Positions 25,657 to 29,079 of a stretch of 64,000 nucleotides of DNA are shown here, one piece after another (position 1 is the first letter of the stretch; each line of letters starts with the position of its first letter). The notes under the pieces are model-generated. The model did not search any database. It was given only the letters and a program-made list of their open reading frames with translations, and was not told the origin of the DNA. A program made the position numbers and the translations under genes. The stretch spans positions 62,001 through 126,000 of the forward strand of contig NZ_SGXJ01000002.1 of the NCBI RefSeq assembly GCF_004216905.1, given 5' to 3'. The DNA comes from Kribbella sp. VKM Ac-2569. GTDB taxonomy: Bacteria; Actinomycetota; Actinomycetes; Propionibacteriales; Kribbellaceae.

Positions 25657-27516
25657 TCAGCGGAGAGTGCTGTTCGCCACCGCGTCGAGGCTCTGCTGCA
25701 GGATCGGGTTCACCCGCGGCTGCTTCGACTTCGGCAGGTGTACGGCGTTGCCGTCGACCGGGCCGTCGACCGGGTAGACCGACAGCTCGGCGGGTAGCGG
25801 TGACGTCCCGCAGACCTGGTCCTTGCCGGGTAGCTCGCCGGCGAACACGAACCGGTCGCCGATCTCCTCCACACAGGCCGACGGCGAGCCGACGTACTGC
25901 CCGTGCTGACCTTCGTCGTCGATGGCAACGAACCGGGTCGCCTTGGCGGTGCCCTCATGGGTCCGCAGCGCACCCTCGTACGCCGTCGCCGGGTCCAGCT
26001 CGTCCTGCACCATCAGGATTCGCGGCGAGCCCACAAGGTCGACCTTGCGGTCCTGCGGCGGGTACGGCCAGAACGCGCACATCGGTACGCCGTTCAGATA
26101 GCCGAAGAAGCTGTACTTGCGCGCCATCTTGTCGGCCTCGCGCAGGTAGTACCCCGGGTCGTGGCTGAACGCGGTGTCGTTGCAGCGGACCGTCGTACTG
26201 ATCGCGCCGAGGTTGACGGTCGCGTCACCGCTCGACCTGGCCGCAGTCGCCCAGGCGTCCGCAATGACCGACCGGGCCGAGTCGACACGCACCGCGGCGG
26301 CTGCCGCGGACGTGGCCGCGGGTGTCACGCCGTACCGGGCGCGAATCGCGGCGAGAGTGTCGAAGGCCTGCAGTTCAGGCGAGATCCGGGCCCACGCGCG
26401 GTCGACGTGCCGCAGCTCGACCTCACCGGACGCCGACGGGTCCTTCACGTACTCGTCGTGCACGAGGATGTCGACGGTGGCCCGGATGAAGCGCACGTTG
26501 CCGTACTGCGCGCTGTAGATCATGCCGTCCAGGTTGTCGCCGCGGACACTACTGGCGCCGGCCTTCACCAGCTTCACCAGGTCGGCTCGGACCTGGTCGT
26601 ACTTCGCGGTCACCTGCTTCGGCGTCGACCCGAGCCCCTGGATCATGTCGGCGTGCCGGGCGATCCACGGGATGAGCTGGGTGTCCCGCCGCCGCTGGCC
26701 GGAGAACGGGTCGAAGTTCATGTTCTCCCACTGCGTGTGGGTCCAGTCCATGTTCGAGTCGAGCACGAACCGGCCGACCCGCTCCGGGTACGCGTCGGCG
26801 TACCAGCCGCCGAGCCAGGTCCCGTAGCTGTAGCCGATGAAGTTCAGCTGGCGGGCCTTCAGCAGCGCCCGCAGGAACTCCATGTCGTACACGGTCTGCT
26901 GGCTGCTGACGAACCGGCCGAACTCGGTCGCCGCGCACGCCTCGGCCTGCAGCTTCGCCTCGGCCACCTCGACCTGATGGGTCAGCTTGGTGCGCTCCTT
27001 GTAGTCCGGCGTCACCGGCAACGCGTTCAGCTTCTCGGTCGTGGTAATGCACTGCAGCGGCGTGCTCTGACCGAAGCCGCGCGGGTCGAACCCGAGCAGG
27101 TCGAAGTCGCTGAACAGCTGCGGCTTCTCGACCGCGAGCGACGCGGACAGCGTCAGGCCCGCGCCACCCGGTCCGCCCGGGTTCGTGGTCATCAGGCCCT
27201 TCGAGGTACCGGTGGCCTTGCTGTAGGAGATCGCCACCTTAACGTCCGGGTGCGCGTCCGGGTGCGCCCAGTCCATCGGGACGGTGACCGTAGCGCAGTT
27301 GGTGGTCGGCGCTTGCGGGTACAGGCGCTTGACCGCGGCGTCGAACGAGCAGACCGACCAGTTGACCGGCTGGTCGAGGTACTTCTGCGGAATGGCGGGC
27401 ACCGGCGGATCCACCGGTCCCCTCGACGGGTGCACCGCGTCGGCGGTGCCGACGGCCAGCTGCGGTACGACGAGCAGCGTGGCGAGGGCCAGGGCGATCG
27501 TGCGAGATCTCATCAT
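25657..27516 (-). CDS. Secreted alpha/beta hydrolase, tripeptidyl aminopeptidase-like (SlpD/SlpE type)
   Basis: The 619-residue protein has a signal peptide (TIALALATLLVVPQLAVGTADA), an alpha/beta hydrolase core with oxyanion region TTNPGGPGGAGL (about 112-123), DLLGFDPRGFGQS, nucleophile elbow GYSYGTW (about 225) and DSNMDWT, and a C-terminal TAP-like domain with VQDELDPATAYEGAL and the His in DEGQHGQY. These are the Ser, Asp and His of the triad. Family members remove N-terminal peptides outside the cell. Two adjacent ATGs are possible starts; the first is given. Confidence 0.92.
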   Translation of the reverse strand: MMRSRTIALALATLLVVPQLAVGTADAVHPSRGPVDPPVPAIPQKYLDQPVNWSVCSFDAAVKRLYPQAPTTNCATVTVPMDWAHPDAHPDVKVAISYSKATGTSKGLMTTNPGGPGGAGLTLSASLAVEKPQLFSDFDLLGFDPRGFGQSTPLQCITTTEKLNALPVTPDYKERTKLTHQVEVAEAKLQAEACAATEFGRFVSSQQTVYDMEFLRALLKARQLNFIGYSYGTWLGGWYADAYPERVGRFVLDSNMDWTHTQWENMNFDPFSGQRRRDTQLIPWIARHADMIQGLGSTPKQVTAKYDQVRADLVKLVKAGASSVRGDNLDGMIYSAQYGNVRFIRATVDILVHDEYVKDPSASGEVELRHVDRAWARISPELQAFDTLAAIRARYGVTPAATSAAAAAVRVDSARSVIADAWATAARSSGDATVNLGAISTTVRCNDTAFSHDPGYYLREADKMARKYSFFGYLNGVPMCAFWPYPPQDRKVDLVGSPRILMVQDELDPATAYEGALRTHEGTAKATRFVAIDDEGQHGQYVGSPSACVEEIGDRFVFAGELPGKDQVCGTSPLPAELSVYPVDGPVDGNAVHLPKSKQPRVNPILQQSLDAVANSTLR

Positions 27517-27568
27517 CTGCGAACTCCGTGTATCCGGGCGGGGATCAGGAATGCAGGCAAACCTATCG

Positions 27569-28252
27569 TCAGAGCTCGTACGCGGTGAAGATCGTGCAGA
27601 AGATCGGTGGTGACTCGAGGCCCGGGTAGTAGAGCCGACCGGCTGCGTCGGTGATCTTGAAGTACGCCGTCGACGCGCCGACCTGGGACGGCGCCCGCAA
27701 GGTCATCCGCACCGTCACGACGTCGCCCGGCCCGGCGTCGGGCACCCGCTCGCGCGCCGGTGACCTCAGCCATCCCGGCGCGCCGGCGGCGCCTTGGCGG
27801 GTGAGGTAGCGGTTGTGCCACGGGCGTTCGCCGCTGTTGCGGAGCTCCCAGGTCTTCTCGAACACCTGCTCCCGGCACACCCGCGTACCGTCAGGCACCG
27901 TCTCCCCCACCAGTTCGGCCCGGTCGTCGGGGTGATGATCGATCGGCACGGATCCACCGAGCAGCACCGGTTGCACATGCCGGCGCATGTCCCGCTGCGA
28001 CATGTCCCGGCCGGCACGTACGGCGGCGTCGAGTTCCATCAGCTGGTTGACCAGCGCCTGGTTCGCTCCGAACGAGTCGTCGTACCACTCGATCAGCTCG
28101 CGGCTCGGCTTGGTGTGGCCGCGCTCGACCCGGGACAGATGCCCCTTGTCCCAGCCGGATTCGGAGGCGGCACGGGTCAAGGCCACCCCGGCGGCCTCGC
28201 GCAGCTCGCGCATGCGCGCTCCGATCACGTACCGAGCCTGGGCTGGGCGCAC
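27569..28252 (-). CDS. XRE-type HTH protein fused to an NBR1 Ig-like domain
   Basis: The 227-residue protein has an XRE HTH at about residues 8-62 (GARMRELREAAGVALTRAAS, then GWDKGHLSRVERGHTKPSRE). Residues about 115-227 match the NBR1/FW (four-tryptophan) Ig-like domain: GETVPDGTRVCREQVFEKTW, ELRNSGERPWHNRYLTRQG, PGDVVTVRMTLRAPSQVG, ASTAYFKITDAAGRLYYPG. It starts at GTG 28252 with GGAGAG upstream. FW domains are best known from the autophagy receptor NBR1; in bacteria their role is unclear. It lies divergent to a secreted wall hydrolase. Confidence 0.85.
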   Translation of the reverse strand: MRPAQARYVIGARMRELREAAGVALTRAASESGWDKGHLSRVERGHTKPSRELIEWYDDSFGANQALVNQLMELDAAVRAGRDMSQRDMRRHVQPVLLGGSVPIDHHPDDRAELVGETVPDGTRVCREQVFEKTWELRNSGERPWHNRYLTRQGAAGAPGWLRSPARERVPDAGPGDVVTVRMTLRAPSQVGASTAYFKITDAAGRLYYPGLESPPIFCTIFTAYEL

Positions 28253-28349
28253 GGCGCACTCTCCGCTCTCGCCGTCACTTATCTACATAAAGTACCAAAC
28301 CGCAGTGAATCAGCTCCGTTGCCCACTGCGACAACGCCGTCACTTTTTG

Positions 28350-28380
28350 GTTCCCTGCGAGTACAACTCCAGAAGGGAAC
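28350..28380 (+). promoter_or_regulatory. Hairpin covering the ribosome site of the secreted hydrolase
   Basis: GTTCCCT (28350-28356) pairs with AGGGAAC (28374-28380) over a 17-base loop. The second arm is the AAGGGA ribosome site of the gene starting at 28387, so the fold would hide it. Whether it is regulatory is unknown; it does not resemble the c-di-AMP riboswitch often found before wall hydrolases. Confidence 0.35.
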
Positions 28381-28386
28381 ACCACC

Positions 28387-29079
28387 ATGCGTACCGCCCT
28401 CATGCGCATCACGTCCCGTCTCACTGCCGTCGCCCTGCTCAGCGGCGCCGCCCTCGTCGGCACCGGTGTCCTCCCGGCCAGTGCCGCCACCGGAACCGTT
28501 GTCACCGACAGCGGCGCCGGCGTCACCATCCGGTCCGGCAACGCGACCAGCTTCGGCTCGGTCGGCACCCAGCCGGACGGAGCCGTCGAGATCGACTGCC
28601 AGATCTACGGCGAGCCGGTGACCGGCAAGTTCGGCCGCAGCCTGATCTGGGACCACATCCCCGGCAAGGGCTTCATCACCGACGCCTACGTCAACACCGG
28701 CAGCAGCGGCCTGGTCGCGCCGCTGTGCACGAGCAACCCGCGCGCCGACAAGGCCGTCGCCTGGTACGCCGCACGCAGCGGGTCGACCGCCTTCCAGGGG
28801 TACTGCGAGATGGCCGCCGAGAACTCGTACGGGAAGACCGGTATCTGGGCCTCGGCCATCGCCGACTGGAACGACGCCGTGGCCCGTGGCGCCGCACACC
28901 GCGGCGATCTGAACCCGCCGAAGGGCGCCCTGGTCTTCTGGAACATCAGCGCCTACGGCCATGTCGGAGTAGCCAAGGGCGACGGCACGTTCTGGGCCAC
29001 CAGCGTCAGCGGCGCGATCGGCACCCGCGCGCTGCCCTACTTCAACAACTACCTCGGCTGGGCCTGGCCGAACTTCTGA
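28387..29079 (+). CDS. Secreted SH3-like plus CHAP/NlpC-like cell-wall hydrolase
   Basis: The 230-residue exported protein has a signal peptide to about residue 35 (LTAVALLSGAALVGTGVLPA, then SAATG), a bacterial SH3-like segment (GVTIRSGNATSFGSVGTQPD; GKGFITDAYVNTG) and a C-terminal peptidase-like region with AVAWYAARSGSTAFQGYCEM (candidate nucleophile Cys), GDLNPPKGALVFWNISAYGH (His) and VGVAKGDGTFWATS. This layout is common for actinobacterial amidases that cut peptidoglycan. The upstream 134 bases are the control region shared with the HTH-FW gene and carry two CCGTCACTT repeats. Confidence 0.85.
   Translation: MRTALMRITSRLTAVALLSGAALVGTGVLPASAATGTVVTDSGAGVTIRSGNATSFGSVGTQPDGAVEIDCQIYGEPVTGKFGRSLIWDHIPGKGFITDAYVNTGSSGLVAPLCTSNPRADKAVAWYAARSGSTAFQGYCEMAAENSYGKTGIWASAIADWNDAVARGAAHRGDLNPPKGALVFWNISAYGHVGVAKGDGTFWATSVSGAIGTRALPYFNNYLGWAWPNF

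Follow-up and report, generated by a model that had tools for sequence, protein, structure and literature searches.

The FW domain, which reportedly owes its name to Svenning in 2011, is best known from eukaryotic proteins such as the autophagy receptor NBR1, as an earlier note on the DNA examined here rightly stated. Fusions of FW to an XRE-type DNA-binding domain have nevertheless been in print since 2012, so that the architecture described below is not itself new: in the accessible part of their paper (PMC3357945), Marchbank et al. named XRE-FW proteins, listed Kribbella flavida among the organisms concerned, reported that Streptomyces has FW proteins bound to the membrane, and proposed that the domain has to do with dimerisation or with a small signalling molecule. 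That part of the paper names neither a target nor a DNA site nor a neighbouring gene. A protein of R. fascians is drawn in the available portion of a review of NBR1 (PMC9582228). As for the eukaryotic domain, Zhang et al. (2022; accessible sections of PMC9233695) solved its recognition of an N-terminus, the FW pocket of CtNbr1 holding the N-terminal di-glycine of Ams1. The literature searched, which covered few subscription papers, did not assign a function, a target or a DNA site to any bacterial XRE-FW protein. With the architecture of the K. flavida member, the protein of the present locus belongs to this known, uncharacterised kind, to which the present analysis adds a DNA site and a probable target.

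The window, a stretch of 64,000 nucleotides from the soil bacterium Kribbella sp. VKM Ac-2569 (contig NZ_SGXJ01000002.1, positions 62,001 to 126,000), carries the gene of this protein together with the features collected in the table.

Table. Features of the XRE-FW locus, numbered from the first position of the window
Feature	Position	Strand	Basis and remarks
Secreted TAP-like serine peptidase, downstream of XRE-FW	25657..27516	-	Pfam; adjoins XRE-FW in 14/21 loci
XRE-FW regulator gene	27569..28252	-	227 aa, GTG start; the open reading frame of the earlier note
FW / N_BRCA1_IG domain	27629..27901	-	PF16158, residues 118-208; about 110-224 in the model; fold match
Residues 114-121, beta1-beta2 edge of putative N-terminus pocket	27890..27913	-	Profile alignment, CtNbr1 numbering of PMC9233695 (accessible part), conservation
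XRE helix-turn-helix, residues 10-71	28040..28225	-	PF13560 (HTH_31) and model
Conserved 18-bp site GTTGCCCACTGCGACAAC, presumed operator	28318..28335	+	Between XRE-FW and SEC
Second conserved block, T.AC.cTcTGaTTc.CTG	28340..28357	+	Ungapped column consensus of 50 sites; follows the 18-bp site at a constant distance
SEC, divergent secreted protein, presumed target	28387..29079	+	Signal peptide judged by eye; SH3-like region; CHAP/NlpC-like C-terminal region containing Cys140 and His192

Both halves of the fusion that the earlier note had proposed are matched by Pfam families above their cut-offs, HTH_31 with E 6.5e-12 (46 bits, cut-off 27) and N_BRCA1_IG with E 2.8e-13 (50.8 bits, cut-off 28), the latter lying C-terminal to the helix-turn-helix and near the end of the protein. 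The AlphaFold2 model, computed from 20 aligned sequences (mean pLDDT 80.3, pTM 0.66), comprises five N-terminal helices, a disordered linker at residues 84-100 and a beta-sandwich. Three solved FW domains head its structural matches, namely those of ILRUN (6vhi, Z 14.3), human NBR1 (4ole, Z 13.7) and CtNbr1 (7vqo, Z 12.6), as compared with Z of about 9 for Ig-like folds other than FW, and the FW fold claimed for the C-terminus is thus borne out. Likewise, a profile built from nine bacterial FW stretches was aligned by HMMER with ILRUN (E 5.7e-13), human NBR1 (4.9e-10) and CtNbr1 (2.6e-7). The N-terminal part of the model resembles XRE regulators of the ClgR type (3f51 and 5woq, Z 10.8-11.7), and 3f51 is also the best PDB match in sequence, through the helix-turn-helix (E 0.00047). 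The ClgR-type proteins, however, have no FW domain, and XRE-FW reaches 20.6 of 170 bits, far below the ClgR equivalog cut-off. Another actinobacterial system in which an XRE protein stands beside a partner gene is that of the XRE-DUF397 pairs of Streptomyces (accessible parts of PMC10364602 and PMC6262351); there the small DUF397 partner is encoded downstream, whereas in Kribbella the constant neighbour is a divergent gene for a secreted protein, and FW forms part of the regulator.

An orthologue of XRE-FW was found in 37/37 Kribbella genomes, that of the window included, although the one of genome G018 (locus L101) is broken, most of its FW domain having been lost through a deletion with a change of frame. 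FW proteins over the cut-off occur in all 38 Kribbella genomes (G034 has a single one, 83% identical to the XRE-FW of the window) and in only 14 of 393 genomes sampled elsewhere in the class, which argues that XRE-FW is not a chance feature of the genus. With regard to a phage origin, the protein had no match among 50,697 phage records. The record NZ_JAAGLV010000009.1, titled Streptomyces sp. SID13031, also bears the Kribbella XRE-FW locus and is probably misnamed. A second FW-like stretch, below threshold (23.7 bits, cut-off 28), is present in the genome of the window itself (G000:C9:4238-4459), inside an RHS/YD-like repeat protein with an open frame of 2498 aa and, by eye, a signal peptide.

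The gene opposite XRE-FW, here called SEC, had been described as that of a secreted wall hydrolase. The divergent arrangement stands and secretion is indicated by the sequence as judged by eye, but the label of hydrolase is weak: the CHAP match of SEC remains below threshold (23.8 bits, cut-off 26), and its SH3-like part matches the wall hydrolase GsmA weakly, at 39.3 bits, far below the family cut-off of 240. Cys140 and His192 are invariant in all 19 aligned orthologues; the model of SEC is too poor for use (pLDDT 43). XRE-FW and SEC form a divergent pair at each of the 30 loci compared and in eight of eight further genomes, that is, in 38/38 Kribbella genomes. A search of these whole genomes at E <= 1e-15 gave 51 matches to SEC. 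Two of these come from a single broken gene in G018, which leaves 50 genes; 38 of them stand next to XRE-FW, 10 are second copies in tandem and two are unlinked. The tandem duplicates stand beside XRE-FW in 10/38 genomes, and in such pairs the copy proximal to XRE-FW is the shorter, its similarity to SEC being confined to the CHAP-like part. Control of SEC through an RNA leader was considered and rejected: the stretch of the window gave z -2.16, but 47 leaders had a mean z of -0.15 with none below -2 (plain, not dinucleotide, shuffles).

The invariance of this pairing bears on the suggestion that XRE-FW mainly controls the peptidase gene downstream, or itself, which we consider improbable. The peptidase gene does lie on the same strand, behind a gap of only 52 bp in the window. 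Yet it adjoins XRE-FW in no more than 14 of the 21 six-kb loci, as against 38/38 genomes for SEC, and is therefore not an obligatory partner. In addition, the XRE-proximal copy of the site described below has decayed at locus L016, where XRE-FW itself has not been lost.

Between XRE-FW and SEC lies a conserved 18-bp site, 65 bases from the start of XRE-FW and 51 bases from that of SEC. Its pattern, GTTGCCYACTGCGACAAY, occurs with at most one mismatch at 53 sites in 38/38 Kribbella genomes, as compared with 0/38 for the reversed pattern used as control. Within the gap of the window, 18-mers lying over the site are found again, with up to two mismatches, in 27 of 28 other loci, the median for all 18-mers of the gap being three loci. 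The XRE-FW locus accounts for 48 of the 53 sites (two each in ten loci, one each in 28). Two of the five sites elsewhere are exact and precede unlinked SEC paralogues of 160 and 162 aa by 67 and 77 nt, while the other three have no SEC nearby, which counts against XRE-FW as a dedicated regulator of SEC. All 50 SEC genes, tandem and unlinked copies included, thus have the site upstream, and 50/53 sites are linked to SEC (a regular-expression count found SEC after 47 of the 50; in the remaining three, the second copy at L005, L101 and L103, it was found by tblastn). Thirteen of the 18 positions are invariant over the 50 SEC-linked sites, whereas the preceding 30 bases share almost nothing. In the other genomes of the class, the site is at chance level, being found with at most one mismatch in 7 of 393 and nowhere exactly, as against 12 for the reversed control. 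Five SEC relatives from genomes without a listed FW protein lacked the site upstream, the best candidate having six mismatches. A wider regulon was considered and dismissed, since the genome of the window holds 19 sites at up to three mismatches (the exact one and 18 with two or three) as compared with 12 for the reversed control; two of these have two mismatches, and neither is near SEC.

Since it follows SEC through duplication and relocation, the site is to be assigned to SEC, and its presence beside XRE-FW is dispensable. This is best seen in genome G010 (loci L016 and L111), where extra DNA separates XRE-FW from SEC: at L016 the copy on the XRE-FW side has decayed to four mismatches and the copy at the displaced SEC is intact. 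The proposal of the earlier note that the facing secreted gene may be the target is therefore well supported, if indirectly, by the divergent arrangement in 38 of 38 genomes and by a site that accompanies SEC copy for copy.

In the main rival explanation, the site and the block downstream of it would be a SEC promoter recognised by an alternative sigma factor, or bound by an unlinked regulator, XRE-FW being no more than a neighbour of long standing. The rival owes its weight to the second block, which keeps a fixed spacing to the site and is probably part of the SEC promoter, and it agrees with the site staying with SEC rather than with XRE-FW (L016, the unlinked paralogues, one site for each SEC). 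The same spacing and the decay at L016 count against XRE-FW as a dedicated regulator, as does the weak symmetry of the site (5/9 pairs, the outer four included). A sigma factor or global regulator should, however, serve more than one gene, whereas 35 of 38 Kribbella genomes have no site (at most one mismatch) away from SEC; such scarcity is more in keeping with a dedicated regulator than with a sigma factor that serves many promoters. The divergent pairing of XRE-FW with SEC in 38/38 genomes also speaks against the rival. Genome G018 provides a further, single case: of all the sites, its one alone is altered at position 11, and both XRE-FW and SEC are broken there, which suggests decay of the whole module, whose parts may be lost together. 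We do not read the changed site of G018 as a sign of coupling to the broken XRE-FW alone, since SEC is broken too and the case is single; G030, in which XRE-FW is intact, has a site change of its own as well, at position 6. Scans of 27450-28450 for sigma-70 promoters and terminators gave no match. A promoter read without XRE-FW appears unlikely to us, though it deserves to be taken seriously.

That XRE-FW would be the reader of the site is suggested by the invariant divergent pairing, by the scarcity of the site and by the region around the presumed recognition helix (residues 33-44, GWDKGHLSRVER), which is identical in 37/37 intact orthologues. Regulation of SEC by XRE-FW through the 18-bp site consequently seems to us quite likely, as far as comparison of genomes can tell.

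Turning to the effector part, the designation of the FW domain as a four-tryptophan domain needs correction. Of its four signature positions, just two still hold tryptophan (W135 and W145), and the others are occupied by phenylalanine (F198 and F218). The aromatic character itself is kept: W135, W145 and F198 are found in 37/37 intact Kribbella orthologues, and position 218, which was aligned by eye with the fourth signature position (W763) outside the HMMER stretch, is Tyr in 34, Phe in two and Cys in one, hence Y/F in 36/37. Mapping of the CtNbr1 pocket onto XRE-FW equates F651 with L114, D654 with E117, D658 with D121, W672 with W135 and W763 with F218. L114, E117 and D121 are, like W135, W145 and F198, invariant over the 37 intact orthologues, so that both acidic residues of the pocket are kept throughout. 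Among the aromatic side walls, F651 is replaced by L114 in all 37. What the aligned sequences retain is accordingly the acidic end of the pocket together with, in nearly every case, one of its aromatic walls; the second wall is lost. In the FW domain of Actinopolymorpha, the walls are apparently swapped, with Trp at 114 and Leu at 218. As compared with the FW domains of Nbr1 (CtNbr1, human NBR1) and ILRUN, the Kribbella protein thus has in common the fold, the acidic pocket residues and the tryptophan at the place of W672, and differs from NBR1-type proteins in its replaced signature tryptophans, in the leucine at the place of F651 and in being fused to a DNA-binding domain; PB1, ZZ and UBA domains are absent around FW, Pfam giving HTH and N_BRCA1_IG only.

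What this implies for binding may be judged from the mutants described in the accessible part of PMC9233695. The exchange D654E, the same as that found at E117, relaxed the second ligand position in CtNbr1, while F651A abolished binding in fungal Nbr1; in view of the latter, the lost wall counts against a regulator that would use FW as its effector. It is conceivable, and among the options raised by Marchbank et al., that FW is only an oligomerisation module of a DNA-binding protein and not a sensor, which would be compatible with the proposed site and target. Multimerisation domains are frequent in XRE regulators, according to the accessible part of PMC3357945, and the loss of one pocket wall points the same way; FW in the complex of PMC9233695 (part available) nonetheless recognises the free N-terminus of another protein, and the acidic residues kept in 37/37 and 37/37 orthologues, like the aromatic residue kept at 218 in 36/37, count against this reading. 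We regard a purely oligomerising FW as possible but rather doubtful. By analogy with fungal Nbr1 (PMC9233695, accessible part), with which the retained acidic pair agrees, FW would rather be, as the earlier note suggested, a domain for the binding of a ligand or partner, and we lean towards this assignment. Whether it would do so by reading a free N-terminus is a narrower proposal, which we put forward tentatively and think less likely to hold than to fail.

Outside Kribbella, the comparison gives a mixed picture. Plasmid-borne XRE-FW proteins of Rhodococcus fascians D188 and Gordonia hongkongensis, 33-34% identical to the protein of the window, are also encoded divergently to a gene for a secreted protein, in their case one with DUF2690 (signal peptides by eye), and the two gaps have a palindrome in common, CGGTAAAAGGTTTTTCACCG and CGGTGAACCAGTTTCACCG. 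In six of nine proteins from other actinomycetes inspected by eye, DUF2690 forms a fusion with a preceding HTH-like region and membrane segment. The 14 FW proteins found class-wide show, again by eye, a hydrophobic, membrane-like segment before FW and mostly an HTH-like N-terminus; this would put their FW domain outside the cell and make them membrane-anchored relatives of the soluble regulator. On HTH-membrane scaffolds, FW and DUF2690 apparently take the same position. The XRE-FW of Actinopolymorpha and its relative G047, on the contrary, faces a short-chain dehydrogenase (the gene was read in G047), so a secreted neighbour is not universal for XRE-FW. In M. adipatum, an FW protein faces a gene without Pfam match or evident signal peptide; we do not count this protein as XRE-FW, since Pfam finds no HTH in it. 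Such FW genes without a secreted gene opposite count against the dedicated-regulator reading.

Taken together, we consider it somewhat more probable than the contrary, from the sequence comparisons, that XRE-FW is a dedicated local regulator of SEC acting through the site, with FW as its ligand- or partner-binding effector. We infer that its helix-turn-helix, probably as a dimer, binds 28318-28335, which probably overlaps or abuts the SEC promoter, and that this binding would switch SEC, repression being slightly likelier than activation. For FW, we infer an effector role in which the binding of a partner protein or peptide would alter DNA binding, recognition perhaps being of a free N-terminus, as in fungal Nbr1.

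The accessible part of PMC6113628 reports that the wall peptidoglycan of Kribbella holds LL-diaminopimelic acid and glycine and that Kribbella hyphae fragment to rods and cocci; fragmentation is also known for K. flavida. With hyphae that fragment and a wall of LL-A2pm and glycine, a switch on a secreted wall protein could plausibly have a role in hyphal fragmentation. It is tempting to go further and to speculate that FW is a cytoplasmic sensor of free peptide N-termini whose ligand is a peptide from wall turnover that exposes a glycine at its N-terminus, or else a protein given such a glycine, in which case FW would couple wall turnover to the gene of a secreted wall hydrolase. We attach very little likelihood to this last idea.

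In any event, the locus offers a handle on the role of FW in bacteria, namely a single 18-bp site, one presumed target gene and three residues of the pocket. If it is true that a bacterial FW domain senses a free N-terminus, this would suggest what the domain of NBR1 did before autophagy. Should the wall-peptide reading also be true, an ancient domain that reads N-termini would act as the signal input of bacterial transcription factors and would later have come to serve NBR1 in the recognition of autophagy cargo.
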